From Bacillota bacterium (GTDB lineage Bacteria > Bacillota > Sulfobacillia > Sulfobacillales > Sulfobacillaceae), in contig JAIMAE010000018.1 in NCBI GenBank assembly GCA_023512105.1, positions 1 through 33,852 on the forward strand: 33,852 bases of DNA, written 5' to 3'. The notes beneath the pieces were generated by a model, which did not search any database, was not told the DNA's origin, and was given only the letters and a program-made list of their open reading frames with translations. Of this stretch, positions 4,197 through 33,666 are shown piece by piece. The translations under genes and the position numbers were made by a program. Every line of letters begins with the position of its first letter. Within the stretch, counting starts at the first letter, position 1.

Positions 4197-8096
<3,900 letters not shown>

Positions 8097-8103
8097 CGTT
8101 CGC

Positions 8104-8126
8104 CCCAGGGGGCTCTTCCCCTTGGG
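8104..8126 (+). terminator. Hairpin after the glycolysis operon, weak terminator candidate
   Basis: CCCAGGGG pairs with CCCCTTGGG (one bulged T) just after the HAD stop codon. No T-run follows, so intrinsic termination would be weak; it may instead stabilise the mRNA end. Confidence 0.35.
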
Positions 8127-8167
8127 ACTCCATAGGCTACTAACAAGCTAGGATTAGTCGGATATCC

Positions 8168-8196
8168 TTGCCTTTCTGATCCAGCTGTGCTAAGAT
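8168..8196 (+). promoter_or_regulatory. Sigma-A-type promoter for the peroxiredoxin gene
   Basis: TTGCCT (8168-8173) and TAAGAT (8191-8196) are separated by 17 bases, close to the housekeeping consensus. The predicted transcript starts near 8203, giving an unusually long leader of about 110 nt before the peroxiredoxin start at 8316. This makes the peroxiredoxin a separate transcription unit from the glycolysis operon. Confidence 0.6.
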
Positions 8197-8202
8197 GCGG
8201 AC

Positions 8203-8310
8203 GAGGCTTTTCCTGGGAGAATCTGGCCCAGGAAAGCGCGTCTTTCGCCGAAAACGGCAGAATCCTGCCTGTGAGGACAGGATTTGAATCCGAGCGAAAC
8301 CAAGGGAGGG
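8203..8310 (+). promoter_or_regulatory. Structured 5' leader of the peroxiredoxin mRNA
   Basis: The leader folds by eye into several strong helices. TTTCCTGGG (8209-8217) pairs perfectly with CCCAGGAAA (8227-8235). AATCCTGCCT pairs with AGG-A-CAGGATT (8261-8284) with one bulged A and a GTG loop. GCCG-AAAA-CGGC (8247-8258) forms a small hairpin. TTTCGC (8243-8248) can pair with GCGAAA (8294-8299) to enclose the middle part, competing for two bases with the small hairpin. The ribosome site AGGGAGGG (8303-8310) follows directly. I do not recognise a described riboswitch class, and the arrangement is not a tRNA. It could be a cis-regulatory RNA or just a stable leader. Confidence 0.45.
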
Positions 8311-8315
8311 TTTAC

Positions 8316-8966
8316 ATGGACGAGCACGTGGCTCCGCGGATGCCCGGCCTGGGCGAGGAGGCCCCCGACTTTGAGGCGGTTTCCACCTTCGGGCCGATTC
8401 GCCTGAGCGATTTCCGCGGCAAGAAGTGGGTGGTGTTGTTTTCCCACCCGGCGGACTTCACGCCGGTCTGAACTTCCGAGTTTGTCGCTTTTGCCAAGCG
8501 CGCCCCTCAGTTTGAGGAGCGTAACGTCCAATTGATTGGGTTATCGGTCGACTCGGTGTACTCTCACCTGGCTTGGCAGGCCAGCATCGAGCAGAACTTC
8601 GGGATCAAGATCCCCTTCCCGGTAATTGCCGACCTCGACCAGCGGGTCTCTCGCCTCTACGGGATGATTCACCCTGGCGCCGCTTCCACTGCCACCGTGC
8701 GCACCGTCTTCTTCATCGACGACAAAGGGATCGTGCGCGCCATGATCTACTACCCCTTGAGCCTCGGACGCAACATCGACGAGATTGTCCGGGTGGTAGA
8801 CGGGCTGCAAAAGAACGCCCGCGAAGGGCTGGCCACTCCCGCCGACTGGCGCCCTGGGGAGCCGGCGGTGATTCCGGCTCCGGTGACCGTTCAGGGTTTA
8901 AGGGAACGGCTGGAGCAACAGGGCTCGCCTGGACAGACCACCTGGTATTACAAAGTGACCACCTGA
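8316..8966 (+). CDS. Prx6-type peroxiredoxin with TGA (selenocysteine) at the peroxidatic position
   Basis: Starting at ATG 8316 (AGGGAGGG upstream), the frame meets TGA at 8469-8471 (codon 52) and then continues open to 8966, giving 216 aa if TGA is decoded. The interrupted motif is [15 protein letters not shown]. In the Prx1/Prx6 families the motif PxxxTxxC places the peroxidatic cysteine exactly at this codon. Other Prx6 features follow: the conserved Arg129 in [20 protein letters not shown], and a C-terminal arm with TPADWRPG. The decoded protein has no cysteine at all, so activity would rest on selenocysteine. Prx selenoproteins with the TxxU motif are known in bacteria (e.g. PrxU of Eubacterium acidaminophilum). 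The gene stands alone between its own promoter and a hairpin. A nonsense mutant is the alternative; intact downstream coding and the SECIS-like hairpin argue against it. Standard gene callers would split or truncate this gene. Confidence 0.85.
8501..8521 (+). promoter_or_regulatory. Candidate bacterial SECIS element
   Basis: The stem is CGC-C-CCTC / GAGG-A-GCG with one C·A mismatch: 8501-8503 pairs with 8519-8521 and 8505-8508 pairs with 8514-8517. The 5-nt loop is AGTTT. The stem begins 29 nt after the TGA, the upper stem has 4 base pairs, and G is the second loop base. This matches the bacterial SECIS rules as I recall them (apical stem-loop roughly 16-37 nt from UGA, G within the first two loop bases). 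It lies within the coding region, as bacterial SECIS elements do for SelB binding. The fold is by eye. Confidence 0.6.
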
Positions 8967-18344: not shown

Positions 18345-18420
18345 GTCCCCGTAGCTCAGTGGACAGAGCGCGGGACTTCTAATCCCGGCGTCGCAGGTTC
18401 GAATCCTGCCGGGGACACCA
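18345..18420 (+). tRNA. tRNA-Arg (UCU)
   Basis: The tRNA is 76 nt with encoded CCA. The acceptor stem is GTCCCCG/CGGGGAC. The anticodon arm is CGGGA-CTTCTAA-TCCCG with anticodon TCT. The T-arm GCAGGTTCGAATCCTGC is canonical. It is the last chromosomal-type gene before the mobile element, and its 3' half is a likely integration target, although no duplicate of it is visible in the window. Confidence 0.96.
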
Positions 18421-18427
18421 CCCCAAA

Positions 18428-18463
18428 CCCGCATGGCGTAAGGCTTGCGGGATTTTTGTTTTT
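18428..18463 (+). terminator. Intrinsic terminator of the tRNA operon
   Basis: CCCGCA (18428-18433) pairs with TGCGGG (18446-18451), followed by ATTTTTGTTTTT. Confidence 0.8.
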
Positions 18464-18593: not shown

Positions 18594-20282
18594 TCATGTA
18601 AGCCAACGCGCTTCCTGATCGCGGCACCACTGCGCTAACACGGACCACGGGCGTTTTGGCGTGCCTTCCGGTGTTCCTGTGGCACCCTCCGCCAACAGGT
18701 CTGCCACCGCGGCGGCCAGCTGCAAGCCCTGGCGGGTCGGCTGCGGTACCGCCTCGCAAATGCGCACGAGCCGCCGTTCCACGGTTTCCAGGGCTAGGCT
18801 GTCCGTGGGGTCATTGGGGTCCCAATCCCACACCGTCCATACCGTCAGCACCGGCCATTGGGCCAGGGTGCGGGCGGTTACCCGTAACTCCCAGGGGGAG
18901 AGGTCGCCCGGCTCCAGCAGCATCGTCTGCCACACGCCCGCTAACACGGGCCAGCTGCTGGCGTTGGGTAGTCCATGCACGGGAACCCGCGGACGCCGTA
19001 CGGGAGGCGGCGCATACGTTTCCAATGCCTCCAATAGCCGGACGACTGGGGGAGAGGTGGTCGCCCAGGCCATGGCTGCGGCCCGGAGGATGACCGCCCA
19101 CCCTGCCATGGAAAAGAACGTCCAGGACAGCGCGTCGAGTTCCTTCACCCATGCCTCTGGACTGGGCAACTCCGATACGGACGCCCACGCGGCCAGGATG
19201 GCCGATAAATGGGGGGCCATGAACGCGCCTTGCAACGCCACGGACAAGAGGGGAAGCGATAGAGTGACTGAACCTGAATTTTCGTCTTCTCGGCTCAAGA
19301 CGGGGTGCTGGTCTGCAGACGCTCGGGAGGTTGCGGGCGATTTCGCCCACGGAGGGTCCGGTGTATCAGGGGCAGAGAAATCGCTCTGCGGCCATTGAGC
19401 CAGAACTGCCAAAGCCAAGGTCCGCGCCGCCCGGCGCGCTCGGGCGAATAGGTGCAACAGTAGCGCAGCTTCTTGTTTTTCCGCTGGTTTCATTCCGGCG
19501 ATGATGACGCGAAGGTCTTTCAAGAATTCTGACGAAGTAACTGGCTGCTGGTTGAACTGCTCGCTCCGGGAGAATATGACTGAGCTTAGCTCCGCCACTT
19601 CGGACCAAGCTTCGACCTCCGCGTTGACCTCCAGGGCTACCCGCTCGGCAATCTGCAGCCCAGCTTCCACCACTTGGATAGGATCCGAAGACGTCCGAAT
19701 GATATGTCGTAGAGCTTCGGCGTTATAGTGGTTTTTGCCGGTGTCATCCCTTAGCGGAATGTCTGCTTCCGCGGACCCGAGAATCCACGCCCATGCAGGC
19801 CAGCTTGCGCGCCAAGGGAGTGAAGCGAGGCCGGGCAACCTCAGAGGCTCCGACAGCGCCCGCGCCCGTGCCACCAGGGATTCAGACTCTGGTCTGCCCT
19901 CAAGTTGGATCAGCGCGTCAACTACTCCACGGCTGAGTGCCAGCACCTGTCGTATGTGATCCGCCTCGGCTTGCCCGACGCGGAATGGAGGGCGCTGCGT
20001 CCAGACCCACACCAGGCCAACAAGCCAGGTGCGGCTTTGCGCTGTCGGCCACCAGGGCGGCCCGTAGGCCGGTGCGAGTCGTTCGAGCGTATCGCGGCGG
20101 ATTTGGGTGGTCTCGCCGCGCTCAAGTTTGCTGAGGGAACTCGGATTGAGCGAGCTCCCCCAGCGGGCGGTTTCTTCCAGGGTGCGGCCCAAGAGCTGCC
20201 GCGCCTGGCGGAGCCAATACCCAAGCGTCTCGGCGTTTTCGACTGTTCCCTCTTGAAAACTCGTTTCTGAACCCTGACCCAT
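18594..20282 (-). CDS. Large XRE-family HTH protein of unknown function
   Basis: This encodes 562 aa. The ATG at 20282 is preferred because GAGGGAG lies about 10 bases upstream; the frame is open 15 codons further to a TTG. Residues about 20-70 form an XRE-type helix-turn-helix (LGYWLRQARQLLGRTLEETA, then SSLSKLERGE). The remaining 490 residues are mostly helical by composition, rich in Trp, Ala and Leu, and match no domain I recognise. No ATPase motif or membrane protein pattern is clear. It is transcribed towards the tRNAs and diverges from the excisionase-like gene. It is placed like the master regulator of a mobile element, but its size is far beyond a normal XRE repressor, so a sensor or effector domain is likely. 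Confidence 0.75.
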   Translation of the reverse strand: MGQGSETSFQEGTVENAETLGYWLRQARQLLGRTLEETARWGSSLNPSSLSKLERGETTQIRRDTLERLAPAYGPPWWPTAQSRTWLVGLVWVWTQRPPFRVGQAEADHIRQVLALSRGVVDALIQLEGRPESESLVARARALSEPLRLPGLASLPWRASWPAWAWILGSAEADIPLRDDTGKNHYNAEALRHIIRTSSDPIQVVEAGLQIAERVALEVNAEVEAWSEVAELSSVIFSRSEQFNQQPVTSSEFLKDLRVIIAGMKPAEKQEAALLLHLFARARRAARTLALAVLAQWPQSDFSAPDTPDPPWAKSPATSRASADQHPVLSREDENSGSVTLSLPLLSVALQGAFMAPHLSAILAAWASVSELPSPEAWVKELDALSWTFFSMAGWAVILRAAAMAWATTSPPVVRLLEALETYAPPPVRRPRVPVHGLPNASSWPVLAGVWQTMLLEPGDLSPWELRVTARTLAQWPVLTVWTVWDWDPNDPTDSLALETVERRLVRICEAVPQPTRQGLQLAAAVADLLAEGATGTPEGTPKRPWSVLAQWCRDQEARWLT

Positions 20283-20326
20283 CCTTTTGATGCTCCCTCT
20301 GCCATCACGGATATATGACACCTGCA

Positions 20327-20369
20327 ATTATAGCAGCTGCCAGAGAAAAATTTTCCTCGAGGGCGAGGA
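20327..20369. promoter_or_regulatory. Divergent control region with an inverted repeat
   Basis: On the minus strand TATAAT (20332-20327) lies 45 bases before the start of the XRE gene. Next to it is the inverted repeat TCCTCG-AGGG-CGAGGA (20354-20369). On the plus strand, TTGTCT and GATATA about 17 bases apart could serve the excisionase-like gene. The repeat between the two is a natural operator for the XRE protein; this is inference. Confidence 0.45.
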
Positions 20370-20451
20370 TTTGTCTTGAGAATGTCGAAAGATGATATAC
20401 AGAGACGGTCGAATAACAATCACCGAGATGCGACGTCAGGAGGCGACGGGC

Positions 20452-20643
20452 GTGAGCTCAAAATCTAGACCGCCGCGGCAGGAGTTATTCACTGTGAAAG
20501 AAGTGAGCGCGATTACTCGGCTCAGTCTCCCAACCATTTACCGCGCCATTGAAAAGGGGGAAATCCCGGCTCTGAAAATTGGGCGGTCCCGCCGGATCCC
20601 CCGGTGGTGGGTGGAGGCCCAAACCCGCCCGCCAAGCTCTTGA
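20452..20643 (+). CDS. Excisionase-like helix-turn-helix protein (HTH_17 type)
   Basis: This encodes 63 aa from GTG 20452, chosen because AGGAGG lies 8 bases upstream. The core QELFTVKEVSAITRLSLPT is followed by IYRAIEKGEIPALKIG, SRRIP and a tryptophan pair. This is the MerR-like winged helix of the excisionase/HTH_17 family. Such proteins bend DNA as recombination directionality factors, or act as small regulators next to replication genes. It stands 91 bases before the P-loop ATPase gene in the same direction, so either use is possible. Confidence 0.75.
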   Translation: MSSKSRPPRQELFTVKEVSAITRLSLPTIYRAIEKGEIPALKIGRSRRIPRWWVEAQTRPPSS

Positions 20644-20734
20644 CCTCCAGCTAGGAAATAAAACCGAAAGCCGCCGGGCTCCACAATCCCGGCGGCCAAC
20701 CCCGCGCCCCATGGTAGCAACGGAGGATTCTCTC

Positions 20735-22819
20735 ATGGACGATTATACCACGCGTACACCAGGACAGTCCACCCCCGATACTTCCTCATCGCCACCCGAC
20801 CAACCGCCAGACGCCGCGCTGGCGGCGCTGGTGGCCGCCATCCAGGCCGCCCCCCCAAGCGCCCTGGAGCCGGAGACGATCGCCCGCGTGGCCGCCCTCG
20901 ACGCCGCCGGGTTTGCCCGGATCAGCATGTACCTGTCGCGGGTCCGCGGGTTCCCGTTCAGGGAATGGAAACGAGCCGTCTTTGCGGCGCGTGGCCAGGG
21001 GGAAGGCCGGCCCCGCCGTGCTGCCAGGCCCTCCGTCGGGGCCCGCACCGTGTGGCCGGACGCCCCGGCCGACGCACCCCTGCCGGGCGACCCCTGGATC
21101 TACACGCCAGATGGCATCTATCTCCCCAGCGGAGGAACCAAGGACGACGCTCTCGGTCTGGACTGGGCAGACTCCGCCTCCGCCGATCCCCCACCGACTC
21201 CAATCTTGGGGCCGGCCTACATCTGTGGCTGGGCCGTGCAGCTGGAGGACCCCACCCAGGTCCGGGCCGAGCTGGCGGTGCGGATCGGGCGAGGGTGGCA
21301 CCGATTCTACGTGACACCGGATGCGTTGCTGAAGGCTGACCAGACGGCCAGACTGGCGGCGCGCGGACTGTGGGTATACGGGAAGCCCGCCCTGGCCGCT
21401 GCGTACCTCAACGCGGGCTACCGTGCCGTCCGTGCGGCGCAAGCCCCCCGCCGGTTCACCGCCGTCGCCGGCCTCCACCAGGTGGACGGCCAGCTCGTCG
21501 CCGTGGGGCCGTGGGGCATCCGAGGCCCCACCGGGCGTGCGACCCCCGACGTCGTCCACGACGCCGAGGCGCGCCTGCCCTGGCTCCAGAGCGTCCGGTT
21601 CGGCGGCCCCGACCCCGGCGCCGCAACCCAGGTGTTCCGGCGCGTGTGGGCCATGGCCGACCCGAACGCCCTCGCCCCAGCCGTGGGCTGGTTCGCCGCC
21701 ACATACTGGGCCACCATGATCCGCCAGGTGACCGGACACTTCCCGGCCTGCAACCTCTGGGCCAGCCGGGGCACGGGCAAGACCACCCTGCTGCGACGGC
21801 TCCTCCTGGCCTTTTTCGGGATCACCTCCGATGAAGCCATCCGATCCGTGTCCCAGACCGCGTTCAGCGCCCTCCGGGACCTGGCCGCCTCGAACCTCGT
21901 CCCAGTCATTCTCGACGAATACCGGCTGGGGGAGGCAGATCCGAAGCGCCTCGCCGCGCTCCACCACCTCCTCCGCCGTGCGTACGACGGCAGCTCCGAG
22001 AGCCGGGGGCGGCCAGACCAGTCGGTGGTGACCTACGCACTCGCGACCCCCGTTGTCGTGGCGGGAGAGACTATGATCCCGGACCCCGCCCTCGCCGAGC
22101 GGAGCGTGATCGTGGCCCTCGCCAAGGCCGACACGGTGCAACACCCCGGCAGCCAGGACGCAATCACGTGGCTCCGCGACCACCCCTCCCTGGCGGCGGG
22201 AACGGCGGGCTGGCTCCTTCTGCGGCGGCTGGAGGCGCGCATGCAGCCCCCAGACATGCGCCAGAACCTCCAGACGGTGCGGGGGATCATCGCCCAAGCA
22301 GGCGGGGCAGACTTGCCAGACCGCGTGCAGGACGGGCTGGCCGCCGCCGGGGTCGGGCTCGGCTGGCTGCACGCCCTCGGGCTCACCGACCGCGCCGTCG
22401 CCGATTGGCCGTGGGCCCGGTGGGTGGCGGCGGCGCGAGAAGCGCGGAAGGACCGCTCGACCCTCGACTGGTTCGTGGTGTTTCTTCAGATTGTGTTCAG
22501 TAACCGCGGCCAGTTCGGTGGGATCACCGTCGCCTGTGCCGCGAGCGCCGACGAAGTCCGCGTGGAAGCGGCCCCGGTCGAGGCGGCATTCGACAAATTT
22601 CTCAAGGAGCACGACCTCCCGCGGCTGGGCAAGGAAACCCTACGGCAGGAGCTCGAGCAAGCCGGCCCGCACATCTTCCGCTGCGTGGGCCGGCGATGGG
22701 TAGGCGGAAAGACGGCACACGCCTATGTCCTCTCCCCAGCCGGGCTCGAGCGGCGGTGGGACATCCCCGCCGCGTTCTGGGCCGAGGCCTTGGCCGGCGA
22801 TCGCGAAGACGGCGAGTGA
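20735..22819 (+). CDS. P-loop ATPase, DUF927-like, possible replication helicase
   Basis: This encodes 694 aa from ATG 20735 with CGGAGG 8 bases upstream. The first 90 residues are Pro/Ala-rich and then helical. A middle region (about 110-320) contains AYICGWAVQLEDP and similar beta-rich segments. Walker A is ASRGTGKTTLLRRLL near residue 345 and Walker B is LVPVILDEYRLG near 393. A sensor-like stretch ATPVVVAGET and an arginine in ALAERSVIVAL follow. This layout resembles DUF927 proteins of plasmids and phages, which look like primase-associated helicases. It precedes a repeat array that lies between convergent genes, so a role in replication of the element is plausible. The strongly C-ending codon use differs from the chromosomal genes on the left. 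Confidence 0.65.
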   Translation: MDDYTTRTPGQSTPDTSSSPPDQPPDAALAALVAAIQAAPPSALEPETIARVAALDAAGFARISMYLSRVRGFPFREWKRAVFAARGQGEGRPRRAARPSVGARTVWPDAPADAPLPGDPWIYTPDGIYLPSGGTKDDALGLDWADSASADPPPTPILGPAYICGWAVQLEDPTQVRAELAVRIGRGWHRFYVTPDALLKADQTARLAARGLWVYGKPALAAAYLNAGYRAVRAAQAPRRFTAVAGLHQVDGQLVAVGPWGIRGPTGRATPDVVHDAEARLPWLQSVRFGGPDPGAATQVFRRVWAMADPNALAPAVGWFAATYWATMIRQVTGHFPACNLWASRGTGKTTLLRRLLLAFFGITSDEAIRSVSQTAFSALRDLAASNLVPVILDEYRLGEADPKRLAALHHLLRRAYDGSSESRGRPDQSVVTYALATPVVVAGETMIPDPALAERSVIVALAKADTVQHPGSQDAITWLRDHPSLAAGTAGWLLLRRLEARMQPPDMRQNLQTVRGIIAQAGGADLPDRVQDGLAAAGVGLGWLHALGLTDRAVADWPWARWVAAAREARKDRSTLDWFVVFLQIVFSNRGQFGGITVACAASADEVRVEAAPVEAAFDKFLKEHDLPRLGKETLRQELEQAGPHIFRCVGRRWVGGKTAHAYVLSPAGLERRWDIPAAFWAEALAGDREDGE

Positions 22820-22833
22820 GCCGCCTTCCAACA

Positions 22834-22866
22834 CCGGGCCAGCTTCCAGGCTGGCCCGGCCTTTTT
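22834..22866 (+). terminator. Intrinsic terminator of the ATPase gene
   Basis: CCGGGCCAGC (22834-22843) pairs perfectly with GCTGGCCCGG (22850-22859) over a 6-nt loop and is followed by CCTTTTT. Confidence 0.88.
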
Positions 22867-22893
22867 ATGCGCGTAACCGTCGCAATCTTCTCA

Positions 22894-23173
22894 CCTTACC
22901 TGAGGTAAGGCGGCCGGTAAGGCCGCAAAGCGTTGCGGCGCTTGGGATAGCAGGATACCTTACCGTTCTGACCCCCAAAACCTAGGTAGCAGCCAAAAGA
23001 GGAAAATTTGCGCGCGCTCGCGGAACCCTGGAACCCGCGGTCAGGGAGGGGGGCGCCGCGCAAAACGGTTTTAACTTGGGGGTATCATTTGGAGGTAAGG
23101 ATGGTAAGGCGGCCCGAAAATCCCCGTCCTGCCTCTGTTTGCGGGCCTTACCTTCGCCTTACCTGAGGTAAGG
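22894..23173. repeat. GGTAAGG iteron-like array, candidate origin
   Basis: The heptamer GGTAAGG or its complement CCTTACC occurs nine times in 280 bases: 22894, 22904, 22916, 22958, 23094, 23103, 23146, 23157 and 23167 (first bases). Two sites form the identical 17-base palindrome CCTTACCTGAGGTAAGG at 22894-22910 and 23157-23173, near the ends of the array. A perfect hairpin GCCGCAA-AGCG-TTGCGGC lies at 22922-22939. The array is in a gap of about 400 bases between convergent genes, so it cannot be a promoter operator for either. A replication origin, transfer origin or partition site fits better. Confidence 0.7.
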
Positions 23174-23222
23174 TCCGAATTGCGCGACACCATTCCCCTG
23201 CCCCCCCATAACCCCTGCTCAC

Positions 23223-23438
23223 TTACTCTTCCCCTCTGCGCGACAAAATGCGCTCCGCCGCGGCCAGCGCGCCCATTCGCAGCAACGCGGCCAGCGGCAA
23301 CCCCGCCCGGGCTGCCGCCTTTTCGAGCAATTCGTACTCTTCCGCATTGACCCATACGTCCAGCCGCCGCGACCGCGCCTTCCGGACCGCCCCCGCCCCT
23401 ATGCGCCGCCCCGCTCCGCCGACCTCCTTTTCTCCCAT
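23223..23438 (-). CDS. Ribbon-helix-helix DNA-binding protein, MobC/CopG-like
   Basis: This encodes 71 aa from an ATG with a GGGGGG run about 11 bases upstream. A basic N-terminus is followed by a beta strand and two helices: RRLDVWVNAEEYELLEKAA, then ARAGLPLAALLRMGALAAAE. This is the RHH pattern of plasmid relaxosome and copy-control proteins. Its 3' end faces the GGTAAGG array 50 bases away, so it may bind that array, though the array is not in its promoter. It is oriented opposite to the rest of the element. Confidence 0.7.
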   Translation of the reverse strand: MGEKEVGGAGRRIGAGAVRKARSRRLDVWVNAEEYELLEKAAARAGLPLAALLRMGALAAAERILSRRGEE

Positions 23439-24910: not shown

Positions 24911-24935
24911 GTAGGGAGTAGGGAGGTGTTTGGCG

Positions 24936-25865
24936 GTGCGAATTGCTATCGATGTCGGACACGGCTGGGTCAAAGCGGTGGCCGAGGATGGGGGCCGGGT
25001 TTGTTTCCCTGCCCTCATCGCCCCCATGCCGGCCACCGTGGATCTCGGGGAATTTGCCAGCATGGACGCCGTGGTGATTGAGGGGACGCGCTATGTGGTC
25101 GGAGAGTCGGCGCGCCAGCATGCGACACCCCTTTGGTCTCGGGAGAAGGCCGCCGATCCGGACACCTTACGCCTCCACCTGGTGGCCGCGGCCCAATTAG
25201 GGGCCGTCGGCCCTGTGAAGCTGGTCACCGGCCTGCCCCTCGCCTGGTATGGGCCGCAGCGCCGCGCGCTCCGGGAGACGTTGACGGGGTTCGGAGGCGC
25301 GGTGACGTTGCCGGGGCGGGCGCCACAGCGACTCTGGTTTGACAGGGTGCTGGTCCTCCCGCAGGGGGTCGCAGCGGCCGGGCCGGTTCTGGCGACGGAC
25401 GCGTACGAACCCGGGACGTATGTGGTGGTGGACGTCGGGTACCGCACCACGGACCACCTGCTGGTGGAGAAAACCGAGACGGGGAAGCTTGTATTTGCGC
25501 CGGACGCCGCTGGTTCCATTGAGATCGGCGTCTACTCCGTGTTCCACTCGGTGGCCGACGCCCTGGCCCAGGCGTACCATCTGCCCTTCACCGCCGCCGA
25601 GGTCGAGGCTGCGTCCTTTGTTACCGTTCGGGGCCAAAAAATTGACGTGACCCAGCGGATCCGGGCCACGAAGGAGGCCGTCGGCCGGCAGGTCGCGCAA
25701 AAGCTGGCGGCAGCGCTCGACGCCCACCTCGAAAAGGTGCTCGGCGTGGTGGCGGTCGGCGGCGGGGCCGACCTGCTGGCGGCGGTGTTGCCTGGATGCA
25801 TTGTCTCGCCGGACCCGCAATGGGCCAACGCGGCCGGCTACCTGGCGGCTTTGGAAGCGGGGTAG
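24936..25865 (+). CDS. parM: ParM/Alp7-like actin-family plasmid segregation protein
   Basis: This encodes about 309 aa from GTG 24936, chosen because GGGAGG lies 9 bases upstream; a TTG at 24930 is too close to it. Actin-fold signatures are phosphate loop 1 IAIDVGHGWVKAV at the N-terminus, phosphate loop 2 VVVDVGYRTTDHLLVE near the middle, and the adenosine motif VVAVGGGADLL followed by PQWANAAGYLAALE at the end. Length fits ParM/StbA-type proteins. It would polymerise with ATP to push plasmid copies apart. A ParR-like gene follows after a 199-base gap full of repeats, completing a type II partition locus. Its presence argues for a plasmid-like state of the element. Confidence 0.85.
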   Translation: MRIAIDVGHGWVKAVAEDGGRVCFPALIAPMPATVDLGEFASMDAVVIEGTRYVVGESARQHATPLWSREKAADPDTLRLHLVAAAQLGAVGPVKLVTGLPLAWYGPQRRALRETLTGFGGAVTLPGRAPQRLWFDRVLVLPQGVAAAGPVLATDAYEPGTYVVVDVGYRTTDHLLVEKTETGKLVFAPDAAGSIEIGVYSVFHSVADALAQAYHLPFTAAEVEAASFVTVRGQKIDVTQRIRATKEAVGRQVAQKLAAALDAHLEKVLGVVAVGGGADLLAAVLPGCIVSPDPQWANAAGYLAALEAG

Positions 25866-26064
25866 GCGATGGACCATGCCAACCCGTTGCGGCGCAAGGG
25901 GTGGAGGCCATTTTGGGGTGCATTTTGGTCCGTCCGCGGTACCATCCGGTTTGTGCCGGCGGCAGCATGGTCCTTTAGACGGACCATTGGGACGGCCAAA
26001 ATGCCCGCAACCCCGCATCCCGCCTGGGTTTGACATGGTACCTCGGTGAGAAGGGAGGCCCCAC
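25866..26064. repeat. Repeat cluster between parM and parR, candidate centromere
   Basis: CATTTTGG occurs at 25909-25916 and 25921-25928, with its complement at 25996-26003. GCATTTTGGTCCGTCC (25920-25935) is an inverted partner of GGGACGGCCAAAATGC (25989-26004). GGACCAT occurs at 25871-25877 and 25981-25987 with its complement at 25967-25973, the last two forming ATGGTCC-TTTAGAC-GGACCAT. No open reading frame of note is present. Repeats recognised by a ParR-type protein form parC centromeres, usually upstream of parM; here they lie between the two genes. Confidence 0.5.
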
Positions 26065-26352
26065 ATGCTGGTCAAGCTGGCCTTGGACCCGGAGGCCGAC
26101 GCCGACTTGATCGCCGCCATCGCGGCCTGGCCGCGGGGCGAGCGGTCGGCCCGGGCAAAGGCGCTCCTGCGACTGGCCTTGGCCGGCACGGGCGGGCTCT
26201 TGGCCCGCGTCGAGGCGCTGGAACGGCGGGTGGCGGCCTTAGAACGCGGCGAGCCGGGTGAGCCGTCAGGGTCGCCCGGCGAACCGCCGAAGACGAATAT
26301 CCGGAAGGCTACCGTCGATCTACTACGCCAGTTCGGAGCCTTGGACGACTGA
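26065..26352 (+). CDS. parR: ParR-like centromere-binding partner of ParM
   Basis: This encodes 95 aa from an ATG with AAGGGAGG about 10 bases upstream. The first 50 residues (KLALDPEADADLIAAIAAW, PRGERSARAKALLRLAL) follow the pattern of small RHH partition adaptors, in which a polar segment ending PRGERS precedes a helix. The middle is a short coiled coil (LLARVEALERRVAALERG), then a Gly/Pro-rich linker and a C-terminal helix that could contact the filament. The assignment depends strongly on being next to the ParM-like gene; sequence alone would not settle it. Confidence 0.6.
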   Translation: MLVKLALDPEADADLIAAIAAWPRGERSARAKALLRLALAGTGGLLARVEALERRVAALERGEPGEPSGSPGEPPKTNIRKATVDLLRQFGALDD

Positions 26353-26392
26353 TGCGCCCGAAGTACGCAGGATAAGGGGAATCGTATACACA

Positions 26393-26411
26393 CCCCCGGC
26401 AGTGCCGGGGG
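26393..26411. other. Perfect GC-rich hairpin, oriT or terminator candidate
   Basis: CCCCCGGC-AGT-GCCGGGGG is an 8-bp perfect inverted repeat 40 bases after parR. No T-run follows, so it is a poor terminator. It sits at the upstream edge of the repeat region before the relaxase operon. Confidence 0.5.
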
Positions 26412-26438
26412 GAGAACCGAATAAGCATGCGGCTTTGC

Positions 26439-26570
26439 GGGTAGGGACCAAGTCCCTACCCGATATATATTCGACCGAATTTCCAGCCCAATTTAGGGAC
26501 TTCGCGAGAGCGCCGATGGCGCAACCACGCCACTTTTTCGAGTCCCTACCCGAGTCCCAAAGTCCCTACT
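26439..26570. repeat. GTCCCTA boxes upstream of the relaxosome operon, candidate oriT/operator
   Basis: GTCCCTA or its complement TAGGGAC occurs five times: 26442, 26452, 26494, 26542 and 26562 (first bases). The first two form GGGTAGGGAC-CAA-GTCCCTACCC, a perfect inverted repeat with 10-base arms (26439-26461). The last two are direct and 20 bases apart, two helical turns, ending just before the ribosome site of the next gene. An ATTCG-AC-CGAAT inverted repeat lies at 26469-26480. The position directly before two RHH-like proteins and a relaxase is where oriT and the autoregulatory operator of a transfer operon are usually found. Confidence 0.6.
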
Positions 26571-26592
26571 CCATACGGAGGTGGTGCCAAAA

Positions 26593-27042
26593 ATGGAAGG
26601 AAATCCCAAAGTCGAGAAAGTCGAGACGGAAGGCGTCCAAATCAAGGTGTGGCTGCCGGCCGACGTCTACGACCTCCTGAAGGCGCGTGCTGCCCGAAAG
26701 GGGACTTCCGTCGCAGCGGAGGCGCGGCGGCTGCTGTTGGCCGGCCTGGCCAACATCCGTCCTTCGGAAGGCGTTGAGCAGGCATTGGCGGGCTTAGGTC
26801 GCTTCATTGAACAGCACCTGGAGCCGCTGGTGTTTGTGGCGGCGATGGACGCGGCGTTCGGGCGGGAAGCCTGGCAGTACCAGTTCTACGCCGCCTATGG
26901 GGAGAAGGCGGAAGCGATGGTTCGGGAGCTGGGGGAGCGTGCCACGAAGCGGCTCCAGCGGAAGCTACGTGGGATCGACACGTCGGAGGGAGAGAGGCCG
27001 GGCCGTGAGTCGAGAGAAGACCAGGAAACGGAAAACGGGTGA
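26593..27042 (+). CDS. RHH-type relaxosome accessory protein 1
   Basis: This encodes 149 aa from ATG 26593, with GGAGG 11 bases upstream; a GTG pair at 26581/26584 overlaps or abuts the ribosome site. The N-terminal 60 residues show an RHH fold: VQIKVWLPADVYDLLKARA (strand and helix), then RKGTSVAAEARRLLLAGL. The C-terminal half is a longer helical domain (AALMD-like stretch near AAMDAAFGREAWQYQFYAAY) with a charged tail. It is probably the DNA-binding partner of the relaxase and repressor of the operon, acting on the GTCCCTA boxes just upstream. It overlaps the next gene by 38 bases. Confidence 0.65.
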   Translation: MEGNPKVEKVETEGVQIKVWLPADVYDLLKARAARKGTSVAAEARRLLLAGLANIRPSEGVEQALAGLGRFIEQHLEPLVFVAAMDAAFGREAWQYQFYAAYGEKAEAMVRELGERATKRLQRKLRGIDTSEGERPGRESREDQETENG

Positions 27043-27499
27043 CGCGTATTTGCTCCATCTCCCACCGGAGCTCCGGGCCGCGGCGCAACACATCGCGGAG
27101 GCCCGGGACCAGACGCTGGCCGATTACATTCGCCGGGCTGTCCGCACCCAGGTCCTCATCGATGGGACGGGCATGGAATCGGATACCGTCCTGCGCCTGG
27201 TGGAGGAAGGCACCGAGCGGATTTCCCGGGGGACGAATTTCGCCGCCGTGGCGAGCCAGGCGACGCTGCTGCTGGTGAAACAGCTTCTGCTGGAGCGCCG
27301 GTTGGCCGCCGGCCTCCCCCGCGACATCGCGGAGGGCCAGGTCGACGCCTTGGCCGACGCCGCGGTGACGGAGGCGGAGGCGATATACTCGGACCCCCGC
27401 ACCCGGGCGGCGTATGCCTGGGTGGAGCGGGAGGACCCGGAGGCCTTCGCGGAGCGGTTGTTGGAGGGCGTGGCCGAGGATGAGGATCTGGAAGACTGA
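27005..27499 (+). CDS. RHH-like relaxosome accessory protein 2
   Basis: This encodes 164 aa from GTG 27005 with GGAGGGAGAG upstream, overlapping the previous gene. The frame is open further upstream but the protein-like part starts here. DAYLLHLPPELRAAAQHIAE and QTLADYIRRAVRTQVL give a strand-helix-helix pattern similar to the preceding protein. The C-terminal part is helical and acidic (LLEGVAEDEDLED at the end). The gene stops 17 bases before the relaxase start and is most likely an accessory component of the same relaxosome. The family call is tentative. Confidence 0.6.
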   Translation: MSREKTRKRKTGDAYLLHLPPELRAAAQHIAEARDQTLADYIRRAVRTQVLIDGTGMESDTVLRLVEEGTERISRGTNFAAVASQATLLLVKQLLLERRLAAGLPRDIAEGQVDALADAAVTEAEAIYSDPRTRAAYAWVEREDPEAFAERLLEGVAEDEDLED

Positions 27500-27516
27500 G
27501 AGGAGGCGCGCCGGCG

Positions 27517-28689
27517 ATGCCGCAACAGCCGTTCGTCATGCGGGTCCATTTCTATCTTGCGAACGGCGTGGAAGACCAGAGCCTCAGCAGTGGCGCCCAT
27601 CATGTGGCCTACATCGGTTCGGTCGAAAAGCACGAGCTCCTCGTGGATGCCGACCGGAACACCCTGGAGAGCGCGGCGATACACTCTCGATACGCGGGCG
27701 AGCGGGCCGGGAGCCTCGGATACTTCGGGCCCGCTGGCGCTGATCCCCAGGCCGCGCGAAAGGGCATTCTCGCGGCCCAGGGCCCCGTCTGGCGGGTGAT
27801 TGCCTCCGTGGGGGAAGCGGATGCCCTGAATATGGGCGGCGACCTCACCAGGAAAGCGGGATGGGAAAAAGCCGCGAATACCGTGGTCCCTAAGATGGTG
27901 AAGCAGTTGGGCCTCGACCCGGCCAAAGTCCGGTGGATCGCGGCCGCGCACCGCTACCAAACCCACGAGCGCAATCCGCATATCCACCTGCTCTTCTGGG
28001 AAGACGGGGTGCCCACGCGGAAGACCGCCCAGTGGACGGATGCGGAGCGCCGGGCTATCCGGCGGGCGTGGATCACGGAGCTGTACCGTCCTGAGCGGGA
28101 GCGGCTGGGCCGAGAAAAAACGGAGGCCCGGCAAGCCGCCAGGGCCATCATGGAAGGACTGACCCAGGGGCGGCAGCGGGAACTCCGGCGGCGCCTGGAG
28201 GCGCTGGGCGCGATGCTCCCCGGGAAAGGGCGGCTGGCGTACGCCTACATGCCGCCCAAGGTTAAAGCCGAGACCGAAGCCGTTATCCGCTGGCTCTGGG
28301 CCAACGATCCCAGCCTGCGGGCCGCCCACGACCGCTATCTCGCGGCGGCGGAGGCGATGGGGACCTTCTACTGGCACCCCCAGGAAGCTAAGTCTCACGA
28401 CCGACCGGGCCGGCAGGCGGCGCTGGAGCGCATGCGCGAGAGCGCCGAGGCCGATCTCATCCGCCGCCTGGCGGGGCCGGTCCTGCGGGCGGCCCGGGCC
28501 ACCCGGCCCGACGCAGCCCTGGCGGCTGGCACCCGGATCCCATCCCTGTCCGGAGCGCTGGCGCGGCTGGTGCGACAGGCTGAAGTGGAAGCCCGGCGAA
28601 CCCAGTGGTGGCTGGCGGAGCAGCAGTGGCGGCGCCGGCAGGCGGAGGCGGCGATTGCCCGGGCCACCGGCGCGGAGTGGGCCGGATAG
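27517..28689 (+). CDS. MobL-like conjugative relaxase
   Basis: This encodes 390 aa from an ATG with GAGGAGG about 10 bases upstream. The N-terminal 170 residues have AYIGSVEKHELLVDA, an internal YAGERAGSLGYFGP, and the metal-site motif THERNPHIHLLFWEDG with His150, His155 and His157, a histidine triad of the HUH type. Candidate catalytic tyrosines are Tyr48 or Tyr56 in HSRYAGERAGSLGYFG. This resembles the MobL family found on Firmicute plasmids such as pLS20. The C-terminal half is a long, Arg/Ala-rich helical region. The enzyme nicks oriT and leads the strand into the recipient. The two RHH-like genes before it and the coupling protein after it support this. Confidence 0.75.
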   Translation: MPQQPFVMRVHFYLANGVEDQSLSSGAHHVAYIGSVEKHELLVDADRNTLESAAIHSRYAGERAGSLGYFGPAGADPQAARKGILAAQGPVWRVIASVGEADALNMGGDLTRKAGWEKAANTVVPKMVKQLGLDPAKVRWIAAAHRYQTHERNPHIHLLFWEDGVPTRKTAQWTDAERRAIRRAWITELYRPERERLGREKTEARQAARAIMEGLTQGRQRELRRRLEALGAMLPGKGRLAYAYMPPKVKAETEAVIRWLWANDPSLRAAHDRYLAAAEAMGTFYWHPQEAKSHDRPGRQAALERMRESAEADLIRRLAGPVLRAARATRPDAALAAGTRIPSLSGALARLVRQAEVEARRTQWWLAEQQWRRRQAEAAIARATGAEWAG

Positions 28690-28715
28690 TGGAGTTCCAG
28701 GAGAGGAGGGATGAC

Positions 28716-29018
28716 ATGGTGAAGGTGGTGAAGGAAACCGCAAACGTTGATCTCTCGGCACTCGTCGAGCAGGGCGGGATCTATAAACGCATTGATGAGG
28801 TGCGTGAACTATTTGAATTGTTGAAACGCGACGATCCGGCCTTTTTGGCGACCCATCCGTGGGTCGCAGGTTGGCTCCAGTCCACGGACGATTTTTTGGT
28901 GGGACTGGCCGAGCGTTTGGATGCGGACCGCAGATTGCCCATGATGTTTCCGCATCGCGATTCCACGTGGCCGGGCGGACCGTTTCCGCGGCCACGGCCA
29001 TCGTACCATAGGAGGTGA
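28716..29018 (+). CDS. Small hypothetical protein of the transfer operon
   Basis: This encodes 100 aa from ATG 28716 with GAGGAGGG 5 bases upstream. The first 70 residues are helical and charged (RIDEVRELFELLKRDDPAFL), with a WVAGWL stretch; the C-terminus is Pro/Arg-rich. No domain is recognised. Base composition is more AT-rich than that of its neighbours. It is placed between relaxase and coupling protein, 4 bases before the latter, so an accessory role in transfer is likely. Confidence 0.6.
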   Translation: MVKVVKETANVDLSALVEQGGIYKRIDEVRELFELLKRDDPAFLATHPWVAGWLQSTDDFLVGLAERLDADRRLPMMFPHRDSTWPGGPFPRPRPSYHRR

Positions 29019-29022
29019 GGCG

Positions 29023-31128
29023 ATGCAGGCGCGCACGGCCCGGGCCCTCGTGGCCGGGGCGTTCGGGTTTGTCCCGGCCTGGCTGGCCGGGATGGAGGCG
29101 GCAAGCTTCGGGATCGGCGTCGTGTCTCCCGTGGTGCGGGCGCTCCGGGCGGCCAAGGCCGCCGGCCACCCCGGGCAGATCCACCCGGGCCCGATCTGGC
29201 ACGCCTGGCTGGCCGGCCGGCACTACCTGCCCTGGCACTGGGGGCCGGTCTTCACCCACCCGGCGTGGGCGTTGGGAGCGCTGGGTATCGGCGCGGTGGC
29301 CGGCGCAGCCCTGGCCATCCAGGCGGGGAAGGCTTCCCGCGCGGCCACCTGGGGCGGCCCCAAGGCGGCCGGCAAGGGCCAGTTTGGGACCGCGCACTGG
29401 CGGCCGACAAGGAGCCTGGGCGAGAGCTATGCCCGGTGGGCCGCCCCGGATCGAGCGGGTCAGGGGAAGGCCAAACGGCGGGGGGAGGCCGGTCCGGGCG
29501 GCCTGCTGGTTGGCACGGACACCCTCCAAAATCCGCAGAGGGCGTGGGTGTTGGCGCGCGACGAGCACGCGCTGATTCTCGGGAGCACCCGGTCGGGCAA
29601 GACGCGGCGGCTGATTCTTCCAACCATTGGCATTGTCGGAGGCGCCGGCACCGAAAGCCTGGTGCTGGCCGACCCCAAAGGCGAGCTCTACGACCACACG
29701 GCGGCCTGGCTCGACCGGCAAGGGTACACGGTGATCCGCGTCGACCTCATCCGGCCACGGCCAGGCGGGACGCGCCGATTCAATCCCTTGACCCCCGTGT
29801 GGGCCGCGCTGCATGCGGACCCGCCGGACCCGGCCGCCGCCGCCAGGATGGCCCGACAAATTGCCCACATTATCACCTATGGCAGTGGGAACTTGGTCAA
29901 CACCGAGCCGCTTTGGATCAATGGGCAGATCTCGCTGACGGCGGCCATGATCTTAGCGGTGGCGGCGACAGCACCTCGGGCGCAAGCCCATCTGGCAGCG
30001 GCCTACCGCCTGCTGCTCTCGGCCGGCGCGGACGAGGGGAAGTCTCTCGACCGCTGGGTGGCCGACACCTTTCCCCCGGACCACCCGGCCGCGCTGGCCT
30101 ACGGGACGTATCAGCTATCGCAAAGTAAAACGCGAGCGTCCATCATCACCGGCACTGCCGCGGGCCTCCAATTGTGGGGCGATCCGGAGGTGTCCTGGCT
30201 CACCGCCGCGCAGGACCACGACCTGGCCGCCGTAGGCCGGGAGCCGACGGCGGTGTTTTTGGTGGTGCCGCACGACGATGCCTCCAGGTATATGGCCGCC
30301 GGGCTGTACGTTTCCATGCTCTTTCGGACCCTCACCGACCTGGCGCGCGACCGCGGCGGGCGGTTGCCCCTCCGTGTGAACTGCCTGCTGGACGAGTTTG
30401 GCAACCTGCCGCCGTTCCCGGACTTCGACCAGTTCGTGACGGTGAGCGCGGGCATGGGCATTCGCCTGGTGCTAGCGCTGCAAAACATTGAGCAACTGCG
30501 GAAGCATTACGAGCGCACCGAGCGCACCATCCGGGGGAACATGGGCACCTGGCTCTTCCTGCGGACGTCGGACTTGCAGACGGCCCGGGAACTGAGCGAG
30601 ATGATCGGGCGCTACACCACGCTTTCGGAGAGTGCGCAATATCCCAAGGTCGGCTGGACCACGGTGACGACCGCCGTAGGCCACACCTCCCAGGGGCAAA
30701 ACCTCACGGGCCGGGAGTTGGTCACGCCGGACGAGTTGCTGCGCTGGCCCGCCGACCAGGTGCTGGTCTGGCAGGCGGGCTACCCGCCCGCGAAACTGCC
30801 GCTGCCGGACTTAAGCGCGTGGAAGGTCTTCGCGGGGGCCATTGATCGGCGACGCGAATGGCGGTGGCCCGACACGCCGGTTCCGTCCCTGGACCTGGAC
30901 GCGGGAGAGCCCGATGGGGACACCGGCGACGACGAGCCAATCCGGGGCGAAGCCACCGAAGGCGGCGAAGAGAGCCTGAAGGGAGGTGATGGCATGACGG
31001 ACCATCGGACGGGCCGCGTCCCGGCGGAGCCGGAGATCCCGGCCGCCGCGCTGGGGCCTCTCGGCGGCCTGTTTGCCGGCCAGGTGGAGCCCTTGGCACC
31101 GGGCGACGTGCCCCCGGCGGGGTGGTGA
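29023..31128 (+). CDS. TraG/VirD4-type coupling protein (T4CP)
   Basis: This encodes 701 aa from an ATG with AGGAGGTGAGG upstream. Two hydrophobic segments near residues 8-26 and 84-106 anchor it in the membrane. Walker A is LGSTRSGKTRRLI near residue 190, followed by LADPKGELYD, and Walker B is NCLLDEFGNLPPF near 457. FVTVSAGMGIRLVLALQN and NMGTWLFLRT follow as in TraG proteins. The last 90 residues are acidic and variable. It is the hexameric ATPase that links the relaxase-DNA complex to the type IV secretion channel. Length is typical for Gram-positive forms. Confidence 0.93.
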   Translation: MQARTARALVAGAFGFVPAWLAGMEAASFGIGVVSPVVRALRAAKAAGHPGQIHPGPIWHAWLAGRHYLPWHWGPVFTHPAWALGALGIGAVAGAALAIQAGKASRAATWGGPKAAGKGQFGTAHWRPTRSLGESYARWAAPDRAGQGKAKRRGEAGPGGLLVGTDTLQNPQRAWVLARDEHALILGSTRSGKTRRLILPTIGIVGGAGTESLVLADPKGELYDHTAAWLDRQGYTVIRVDLIRPRPGGTRRFNPLTPVWAALHADPPDPAAAARMARQIAHIITYGSGNLVNTEPLWINGQISLTAAMILAVAATAPRAQAHLAAAYRLLLSAGADEGKSLDRWVADTFPPDHPAALAYGTYQLSQSKTRASIITGTAAGLQLWGDPEVSWLTAAQDHDLAAVGREPTAVFLVVPHDDASRYMAAGLYVSMLFRTLTDLARDRGGRLPLRVNCLLDEFGNLPPFPDFDQFVTVSAGMGIRLVLALQNIEQLRKHYERTERTIRGNMGTWLFLRTSDLQTARELSEMIGRYTTLSESAQYPKVGWTTVTTAVGHTSQGQNLTGRELVTPDELLRWPADQVLVWQAGYPPAKLPLPDLSAWKVFAGAIDRRREWRWPDTPVPSLDLDAGEPDGDTGDDEPIRGEATEGGEESLKGGDGMTDHRTGRVPAEPEIPAAALGPLGGLFAGQVEPLAPGDVPPAGW

Positions 31129-31155
31129 CGTGGTGACATGGAACGGCGAAGACGG

Positions 31156-31186
31156 CCGCGCCCCGGTGTGGGGCGCGGTTCCTTTT
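31156..31186 (+). terminator. Terminator-like hairpin inside the transfer operon
   Basis: CCGCGCCCC (31156-31164) pairs perfectly with GGGGCGCGG (31170-31178) over a 5-nt loop, followed by TTCCTTTT. It lies between the coupling-protein gene and the ArdC-like gene, so it may reduce expression of the downstream genes. Confidence 0.6.
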
Positions 31187-31205
31187 AGGGGGTGAACCTG
31201 CAATC

Positions 31206-32126
31206 GTGAAGGCGGAAGAAGCCAAAGCCCTGGTGGACCAGGGCGTCCAGCAACTCCTCGAGGACCCCGAGCAGTGGCGGCGGTGGGCGGCGACCCTGAG
31301 CCGCTTTCATCGGTACTCGCCCGGCAACGTGCTATTAATCCTGTCCCAACGGCCCGACGCCACCTACGTCGCGGGCTACCACGCGTGGCAAGCCCTGGGC
31401 CGGCAGGTGCAGCGGGGCGAGCACGGCATCACGATTTTGGCCCCGGTCACCCGCCGCCCGCCCCCGGAGGCGGAAGCGGCGACAGACGCCGAGGCCTCCG
31501 CCGAGCGGGCCCGCAAGGCTCCGGTGGTGGTGGGATTCCGGGCCGTCACCGTGTTTGACGTGTCGCAAACCGCCGGCCGGCCGCTCCAGATCCCGGAACC
31601 CCAGCTGCTCGACGGCGACACGCTCGCCCACCTGCTGCCGCACCTGGCGCAGGCGGTGGGCGTGCCCGTGCAGTTCGTGCCGGAGCTGGCGGGCGGGGCC
31701 AACGGCACCTACGACACCACGGCCCGCGCCATTGCCGTGGCCACGGCGGGACGGACGGCCGACCAGCAGGTGAAGACCCTGCTCCACGAATGGGCGCACC
31801 ACGCCGGCAACCGCGGGCCGGGCGCGGTCGACCCCGCCCCGTGGCTGCACCGGGGCGCGGAGGAGATCGCCGCCGAGACCACCGCGTGGGTGGTGGCCAA
31901 GCGGCTGGGCCTCGACACGCGGGCCTACTCCCTGCCCTACGTCGGCCACTGGGCCCAAGGCGACCCGGCGCAGGTCACCGCCGTGATGCAGGAGGTGGCG
32001 ACGCGCGTGCGGGCGATCGCCGACACCCTGGACCAGGCGGCCGAACGCGACCCCTTGCTGGCGCAGGCGTGGCCGGGGGCCCTGCAGGCCGCGTTGGCGC
32101 AGGAAGTCGAGGCCGAGATGGGCTGA
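31206..32126 (+). CDS. ArdC-like antirestriction / ssDNA-binding metallopeptidase-like protein
   Basis: This encodes 306 aa from a GTG with GGGGGTGAACC upstream. The N-terminal ArdC-type domain (about residues 1-130) has FHRYSPGNVLLILSQRPDA, VAGYHAWQALGRQVQRGE and HGITILAPVTRR. The C-terminal domain carries a zinc-peptidase motif HEWAHH (His194, Glu195, His198) with a downstream glutamate in EEIAAETTAWVV. ArdC proteins of plasmids bind single-stranded DNA and protect entering DNA from host restriction. Its place behind the coupling protein fits early expression in a recipient. Protease activity is not established for the family as a whole. Confidence 0.82.
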   Translation: MKAEEAKALVDQGVQQLLEDPEQWRRWAATLSRFHRYSPGNVLLILSQRPDATYVAGYHAWQALGRQVQRGEHGITILAPVTRRPPPEAEAATDAEASAERARKAPVVVGFRAVTVFDVSQTAGRPLQIPEPQLLDGDTLAHLLPHLAQAVGVPVQFVPELAGGANGTYDTTARAIAVATAGRTADQQVKTLLHEWAHHAGNRGPGAVDPAPWLHRGAEEIAAETTAWVVAKRLGLDTRAYSLPYVGHWAQGDPAQVTAVMQEVATRVRAIADTLDQAAERDPLLAQAWPGALQAALAQEVEAEMG

Positions 32127-32147
32127 GCTAGGAGGGGGGAACTGGGC

Positions 32148-32366
32148 GTGATCTCGTGGTGGCTAGGTTGGGGGGCTTGCGTGGTGGCCCTGGCGGCAGG
32201 CGGTTTCGGGGCGTACCACTTCCTTGACCTCAACGCAAGTTGCCTTGGCGCGACGCCCGAGGATTGGAAGCGTCACGAGCGGGCCACTCTGCGATGGGGG
32301 CTGTTCGTGCTAATCGCATGGGTGATGGCTATCGTCGCTTATTTGACTACGGTGCGAACTGTGTGA
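32148..32366 (+). CDS. Small membrane protein with two helices
   Basis: This encodes 72 aa from a GTG with AGGAGGGGGG about 11 bases upstream. Hydrophobic helices are at about residues 4-24 and 48-66, with a charged loop (PEDWKRHERATLRW) between. I recognise no family. It lies between the ArdC-like gene and the pilin-like gene, in the same direction, and is probably a minor mating-channel component. Confidence 0.6.
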   Translation: MISWWLGWGACVVALAAGGFGAYHFLDLNASCLGATPEDWKRHERATLRWGLFVLIAWVMAIVAYLTTVRTV

Positions 32367-32390
32367 ACTGGGAGAGGAGGTTCCTTCACC

Positions 32391-32699
32391 ATGACGTTTG
32401 ATCTCGTTCAGGGCGGGATCTATGTGGCCCAGGTGGCCACCTCGAATCCGAACATCGCCCAGACCCAGGCGGCGCAGACCATCACGACACTCCTGACGAG
32501 CGCAACGGGTTGGATCGCCGGACTGGGCGTATTGGGGGGCGGCCTCATGATTGGCTACCACGGGCTTATGCGCATGTTTTCCGGCGGGGACGCGGCCACC
32601 GACGCCCACCACCTCAGCGCGATGAAGAAGGTGATCTACACGACGGCCATCGTCTCCGGCGGCGCTGGCCTGGTCCATTTTCTGGCCGGACTTTTTTAG
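32391..32699 (+). CDS. Pilin-like/TrbC-VirB2-like membrane protein
   Basis: This encodes 102 aa from an ATG with GGGAGAGGAGG upstream. Two hydrophobic helices (about residues 40-60 and 82-101) flank a short polar loop, the usual topology of VirB2/TrbC-type proteins of Gram-positive type IV secretion systems. No clear signal peptide is visible: the N-terminal 30 residues are polar and moderately hydrophobic. It stands directly before the VirB6/TrbL-like gene. The family call is from topology and context. Confidence 0.55.
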   Translation: MTFDLVQGGIYVAQVATSNPNIAQTQAAQTITTLLTSATGWIAGLGVLGGGLMIGYHGLMRMFSGGDAATDAHHLSAMKKVIYTTAIVSGGAGLVHFLAGLF

Positions 32700-32757
32700 G
32701 CATGCTGCGGCCGCCTCTCCATCGGGGGGGCGGCCTCCCCGTCAGGAGGTGATCCGG

Positions 32758-33666
32758 GTGGCGACCTTGTTGGTTTCCGGCATCGAGGGCTTTCTGTTGC
32801 AACTGGTGCAGGGCATGTTGACGGTGCTGGGGCAGGTCGGCAGCTTTCTCGCGGTTCTCGCGGCGGCGCAGCTGCACCTGCCCTGGGTGGCCACGCTGCG
32901 GGTGACGCTGGAATCGGTGGCGTGGACGCTGCTGGGATTGGACGTGGGGTATACGGTGCTGACGCGCTACATTTTGTGGTCAGAAGGGACGGCGGACCCC
33001 GACGGGTCGATCCTGTGGAAAGGCATCGTCCGCGCGGTGCTCTATGGGGGACTTAGCGCGGCCTTGGTCCCCGCGGTGTTCACGTTCGGGGCCGATTTGG
33101 CCGCCACCATCGCCGCCTCGGCCATCACGGGTCCCGTCCAGACGCTCCAGGGATGGGTCGGCCAGCTCACCCACCTCACGGCCGACGCCGGTGAGCTGCT
33201 GGCGGTCGCGCTGACCCTGGCCGCCACGGTGGCGGTCTTCGTGATCCTGCTGGTGCAGATGGCGGTGCGGGCCGCCGAACTGGTGGTCTATTACCTCGCG
33301 GCGCCCTTCGTGGCCCTGGGCCAGTTGCAGCCGGACGGCGGGGTGTGGAACGGCTGGTGGGCGAACTTGGTCATTCTCAGCCTGAGCCAGGCGTGGCAAG
33401 TGCTGTGTTTGAAGGGCGCCACCGCCACCGCGGCCGACGTGTTCGCGGGCGCTTCGGGTCAGGCGGCCGGCAACCTGATTGTCGGCCTGACGCTGGAACC
33501 GCTGCTACTCTTGGGCTGGATCATCGTGGCGATTCGCGGCCCGCATCTACTCCGCCAGTGGAGCTATCGCACCGGGGTCGGCGGGGCCATGGTGTGGGCG
33601 ATGCAGCGCATGGTGGCCGCCCGCCTGCCGTTGGGGGGAGGAAAAGGAGTCACGAGCAATGGATGA
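32758..33666 (+). CDS. TrbL/VirB6-like polytopic conjugation protein
   Basis: This encodes 302 aa from GTG 32758, chosen because AGGAGG (32744-32749) lies 8 bases upstream; the GTG at 32749 overlaps that site. About six hydrophobic helices are visible, for example TVLGQVGSFLAVLAAAQL, AVLYGGLSAALVPAVFTFGA, VALTLAATVAVFVILLVQM and LIVGLTLEPLLLLGWIIVAI. The pattern with a conserved central segment (RAAELVVYYLAAPFVALGQL) resembles membrane proteins of the VirB6/TrbL group. These form the inner-membrane pore of the type IV secretion system. A hairpin GGCCGCC/GGCGGCC (32709-32735) precedes its ribosome site. Confidence 0.7.
   Translation: MATLLVSGIEGFLLQLVQGMLTVLGQVGSFLAVLAAAQLHLPWVATLRVTLESVAWTLLGLDVGYTVLTRYILWSEGTADPDGSILWKGIVRAVLYGGLSAALVPAVFTFGADLAATIAASAITGPVQTLQGWVGQLTHLTADAGELLAVALTLAATVAVFVILLVQMAVRAAELVVYYLAAPFVALGQLQPDGGVWNGWWANLVILSLSQAWQVLCLKGATATAADVFAGASGQAAGNLIVGLTLEPLLLLGWIIVAIRGPHLLRQWSYRTGVGGAMVWAMQRMVAARLPLGGGKGVTSNG

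Follow-up and report, generated by a model that had tools for sequence, protein, structure and literature searches.

A nine-copy GGTAAGG array beside the gene of a predicted AAA+ initiator is a probable SaPI/PICI-type replication origin of a conjugative element

What is the role of a dense array of one seven-base motif in the gap between two convergent genes of a conjugative element? The initial annotation of this locus had offered an origin, a transfer site or a partition site, and had named as candidate binders the RHH protein encoded on one side of the gap and the ATPase encoded on the other. The DNA analysed here, referred to as the window (33,852 nucleotides at its full length), makes up a complete contig from a metagenome assembly of 3.48 Mb. 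It is a chromosome end together with an integrated conjugative element, the latter being cut off by the contig end. Chromosomal genes extend to tRNA-Pro and tRNA-Arg; tRNA-Arg(tct) (18345–18420, + strand) is the last of them and marks the presumed attachment side. The element then encodes a large HTH regulator (18594–20327), an AlpA/excisionase-like HTH_17 protein (20392–20643, + strand; Pfam HTH_17 E 1.4e-12, PHROG excisionase matches), an AAA+ protein that we call Rep, a ParM-like actin, RHH proteins, a MobL-like relaxase, VirD4/TraG, ArdC, a T4SS pilin and TrbL. Neither an integrase nor the right end of the element was found in the contig, and a second copy of the tRNA end, which would mark the right boundary, was not found in the assembly.

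The array spans 280 bp (22894–23173) and contains nine exact copies of GGTAAGG or its complement CCTTACC. Four of them, at 22894 (−), 22904 (+), 23157 (−) and 23167 (+), form two identical 17-bp palindromes, CCTTACCTGAGGTAAGG, at the left and right ends (22894–22910 and 23157–23173). The remaining five sites are single: 22916–22922 (+), 22958–22964 (−), two within 23094–23109 (+; starting at 23094 and 23103) and 23146–23152 (−). A perfect stem-loop lies in the left part of the array (22922–22928/22933–22939, GCCGCAA-AGCG-TTGCGGC). The sites, the palindromes and the stem-loop are thus all present as initially annotated, and so is their placement between convergent genes: rep ends on the + strand at 22819 and is followed by an intrinsic terminator (22834–22866, + strand; its hairpin and T tract occupy 22834–22859), the array starts 75 bp past the rep stop, and the RHH gene on the − strand ends at 23223. 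Between the two site clusters there is a core (22965–23093), a candidate melting region, in which inverted ACCCCCAA/TTGGGGGT occur at 22971–22978 and 23076–23083. Its AT content is 42% compared with 34% for the contig, and a GC-rich block splits it into two AT-richer blocks (about 55–57% AT per 40 bp). Enumeration of k-mers revealed no second short motif (e.g. GTATCA) shared by the arrays above chance.

In 20,000 order-1 Markov resamplings, the region 22820–23222 contained 0.12 copies of GGTAAGG on average and 3 at most, compared with the nine observed. Only a single further copy is present in the 33.8 kb contig, at 15005. A motif scan, which had been proposed as a check, identified the array as the sole GGTAAGG cluster of its kind in the 404-contig, 3.48 Mb assembly, and closely spaced pairs of the motif are confined to it as well. 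The 17-mer CCTTACCTGAGGTAAGG was not found again in the rest of the assembly, in 60 related genomes or in viral contigs. Since nine copies far exceed those in the resamplings, and since neither a comparable cluster nor another such palindrome occurs in the assembly, a chance origin of the array is ruled out.

The gene upstream of the array encodes a predicted AAA+ initiator helicase, identified by profile and fold matches. Its ORF of 700 aa (20579–22819, + strand) has a likely start at ATG 20735, preceded by GGAGG, and carries Walker A (SRGTGKTT) and Walker B (VILDEY) motifs; the C-terminal domain is predicted to be winged-helix-like. The protein matched a primase/polymerase PHROG, and tblastn against plasmid and phage records returned no match. 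A profile of 15 Rep relatives matched SaPIbov1 Rep (8tch) over the helicase region with an E-value of 3.5e-4, a result sensitive to the choice of alignment (the E-value was 3.5e-4, 0.0058 or 0.44 in different cases). Two AlphaFold models of Rep were of low confidence (mean pLDDT 56 and 64). For the first of these low-confidence models, the only significant Foldseek matches were SCCmec Cch (5dgk, E 1e-6) and SaPIbov1 Rep (E 4e-5); for the second, which covered the core and was likewise of low confidence, Cch was the top match and 8tch was absent among the matches listed. Taken together, the profile and the low-confidence fold models relate Rep to SaPIbov1 Rep and SCCmec Cch. Both of these are self-loading initiator helicases.

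Relatives of Rep were detected in 10 of 201 relatives of the window genome (itself counted) and in 15 of 398 genomes of the phylum; the nearest records come from Sulfobacillus benefaciens and Bacillota MAGs of the same family, and an NrS-1-like branch was found in viral contigs. In distant relatives (15–37% identical over the aligned protein) from several Bacillota families, arrays about 200–290 bp long lie 3′ of rep. Their motifs differ, including GTTAACA, GTTAAGA, TGTAAGG, CGTAACG, TGTCACA, GGTAACA, GTGGACA, GGTTAGA and others, and change by lineage; a cross-table of motifs and arrays is close to diagonal. The exception is AGGTAAG, which the window shares with G035, a genome from the same order but a different family. 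In 15 of 23 Rep loci the top-ranking 7-mer cluster of the locus as a whole has its centre 0–450 bp 3′ of rep, compared with 0.98 expected by position; the loci are partly related and not fully independent, so that this count is indicative, though the motifs themselves differ. The other eight loci have no top-ranked array within 450 bp, and in some of them the array is farther off or the gene is truncated. At locus L022 the top cluster is a short tandem at a terminator, with TGTAAGG sites just after it; the same locus also contains a helicase (ResIII) gene split by a HINT domain, an intein-like insertion (6153–8630). The arrays of relatives are often AT-rich in the middle, more clearly than in the window at loci such as L049 (98% AT in a 40-bp segment). 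Conservation in related elements, the absence of which the initial annotation had regarded as damaging, is therefore found for position and architecture and not for the motif. Rep proteins paired with orthogonal motifs make the recognition code of self-loading helicases directly testable.

Because arrays follow the ATPase family across Bacillota at the same place, with the motif changing from element to element, an origin bound by the ATPase is strongly favoured. We consider it highly probable that the array is a SaPI/PICI-type replication origin of the conjugative element and that the adjacent Rep binds it; we infer binding, melting and replication from the sites, their position 3′ of rep, the recurrent arrays with changed motifs and the kinship of Rep. 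Rep would act as both initiator and self-loading helicase of this integrative conjugative element. Its C-terminal winged-helix-like domain would bind GGTAAGG sites in both flanking clusters, one Rep ring might assemble per cluster, the AT-richer DNA between the clusters would melt, and the two rings would depart in opposite directions (bidirectional loading). The probable use of such an origin is replication of the excised circle before or after transfer.

This layout of rep and downstream repeats is best known from staphylococcal pathogenicity islands, and here a similar layout is found on conjugative elements and phage-like Bacillota loci. SaPI Rep uses its C-terminal domain to recognise repeats that immediately follow its gene, and the C-terminal domain of Cch2 binds repeats downstream of its operon (PMC7581432). 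In PICI origins an AT-rich region is always flanked by two sets of repeats (PMC6092414). Like the rep-ori modules of SaPIbov1, SaPI1, EfCIV583 and EcCICFT073, the window combines an AAA+ Rep helicase, homologous to SaPI Rep by the alignment-dependent 8tch profile and the low-confidence fold, with an origin candidate immediately 3′ of its gene, and has multiple short repeats of element-specific sequence (as seen in the cross-table) in two sets around a presumed melting core. The differences are that its repeats comprise two perfect 17-bp palindromes together with single sites in either orientation, that the core is only mildly AT-rich, and that Rep matches no Pfam family and has no recognised primase domain or adjacent primase gene. 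Moreover, the module resides on a conjugative element and not on a phage satellite: with relaxase, VirD4, T4SS pilin and TrbL present, the element as a whole is not a phage-inducible chromosomal island, which lacks conjugation genes. SCCmec Cch (pattern 1) is the best fold match to the window Rep, at about 13–15% identity in the structural alignment; Cch2 (pattern 2) differs from the window array in having three direct repeats only, and SCC elements rely on serine recombinases and lack conjugation genes. NrS-1-type phage primase-polymerase-helicases (L047–L069) fall in the same AAA+ core family in the alignment and have arrays of about 200–275 bp at the same position. However, they have an N-terminal primase domain (matching NrS-1 primase structures), and the gene after their array is co-directional whereas that of the window is convergent. 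Iteron plasmid origins, represented by the RepA_C locus L110, are similar in having initiator-bound repeats, but these are longer direct repeats in one orientation and the initiator is unrelated.

The alternatives have to be weighed against the same loci. Were the array an origin of transfer, the NikA-like RHH protein (23223–23438, − strand; Pfam NikA-like E 5.5e-6, just under the cut-off) would bind the palindromes and recruit the relaxase. Its gene does adjoin the array, and genes for a MobL-like relaxase, VirD4 and parts of a T4SS are present in the element, yet relatives of Rep have the array in examined loci where neither the window's RHH gene nor its ParM, conjugation or transfer genes were found. 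The RHH gene was also not found in the examined related conjugative elements, and the protein is probably not the binder; of the two binders initially proposed, it is the ATPase whose family the arrays follow. In addition, there is a better candidate for a transfer site. Related conjugative elements of the same bacterial family share the order RHH-relaxase-VirD4-ArdC-pilin-TrbL, and several of them have, 170–213 bp 5′ of the RHH gene, a hairpin in which GGCAGTGCC is invariant and the stem pairs are changed; short repeats come after it, adjoining the RHH start. The window has a counterpart just 5′ of its RHH-relaxase genes, namely the hairpin CCCCCGGCAGTGCCGGGGG (26393–26411) and palindromic repeats GTCCCTAC (26442–26572), which judging by sequence is a better oriT candidate than the array. 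No GGTAAGG array was seen in eight examined loci of these related elements (on incomplete contigs), so it is not conserved together with relaxase and accessory genes, and we regard a transfer role for it as very unlikely.

Equally improbable is that the array is the partition site (parC) of the ParM-like actin system (24930–26352; ALP_N E 6.5e-20). Partition sites are indeed repeat arrays, and the element has both the actin and a small protein of 95 aa encoded after it (26065–26352), but the array is 1.8 kb from parM with other genes in between and thus lacks the adjacency of a parC, and arrays at Rep loci of relatives are found where the examined DNA shows no match to this parM. Some related elements have repeats between parM and the next gene; in the window, the corresponding stretch (25866–26064), a possible partition site, has GGACCAT/ATGGTCC-like sites, and the stem-loop element recurs there at 25880. 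Least probable, by a little, is a regulatory role, in which a repressor encoded by the element would use the array as a set of operators or as a silencer of the genes on either side. Dimeric regulators typically have palindromic sites such as the 17-mers, and the large HTH protein could be such a repressor, but both flanking genes end at the gap, a simple scan of the array found no promoter-like site, and a repressor array would not be expected to recur 3′ of rep while changing its motif. Finally, an attP of a recombinase with arm sites was dismissed on grounds of position: the array is internal to the element, some 4.5 kb away from the tRNA end, and not at an end.

With the array read as the Rep-bound origin, comparison of the window (24930–33666) with the other Sulfobacillaceae conjugative elements (L104–L111) reveals a conserved transfer module next to unrelated Rep-origin modules (Cch-like, D5_N/DUF5906 and RepA_C). 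In L108 the Rep is of the D5_N/DUF5906 kind and a CCTGGGAC array lies downstream of it; L110 has a RepA_C initiator with its own downstream array of long direct repeats. The 606-aa Rep of L108 was considered as a homologue of the window Rep and dismissed, no homology being detectable. It appears that these elements keep their transfer module and replace their replication module: within one conjugative family that has a single transfer module, at least three unrelated Rep-origin modules seem to be interchanged.

The stem-loop within the array deserves separate consideration. A Gibbs search over the arrays recovered a 20-nt element covering it, with a score of 138 as opposed to 105–115 for shuffled sets; a homologous coding block present in four rows accounts for part of this signal. 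In the window, the accessory stem-loop (22922–22945, + strand) includes this element as CAAAGCGTTGCGGCGCTTGG (22926–22945). A position matrix gave 15 matches in 900 kb and none in shuffled sequence, and those outside the training set fell mostly within further repeats, among them the ATTCCGG array of L108 and the repeats flanking parM in L109. One of these matches lies at the tRNA end of the window and looks terminator-like: this copy (18424–18455), directly 3′ of tRNA-Arg, is a hairpin followed by T-rich DNA. The related 19-nt pattern AAACCCTTGYGGCRYAAGG is abundant in viral contigs (IMG/VR loci L113–L192, among the matches listed). In a blind scan of viral contigs for it, 14% of the loci among the matches listed had a strong array surrounding the element, compared with 0.3% of control windows; the loci include near-duplicates, leaving about seven independent array cases, and the association is partial. 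At several of these loci the array is 3′ of a large gene, three of which, among the matches listed, have a Walker A motif. The element is also common without arrays, and a literature search for its sequence returned nothing relevant.

By sequence comparison, then, the stem-loop appears to belong to a recurring element of about 20 nt that is also present in unrelated phage arrays. It is conceivable, though rather doubtful, that it represents a recurring origin element (approximately CAAACCCTTGYGGCGYAAGG, a hairpin with a G-rich loop) common to iteron arrays whose initiators and motifs are unrelated, and that, once exposed by melting, it might serve as a site for single-strand priming or for a host factor. 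If so, origins of phages, satellites and conjugative elements would share one hidden part beside their element-specific sites; in any case, the stem-loop is a concrete new element for testing. A third array, at 9808–10040 of L108, consists of nine ATTCCGG sites arranged as palindromes, has no recognised Rep gene adjoining and contains the stem-loop element too. A sub-class of AAACCCTTGYGGCRYAAGG continues as ACTTACG in unrelated contexts.
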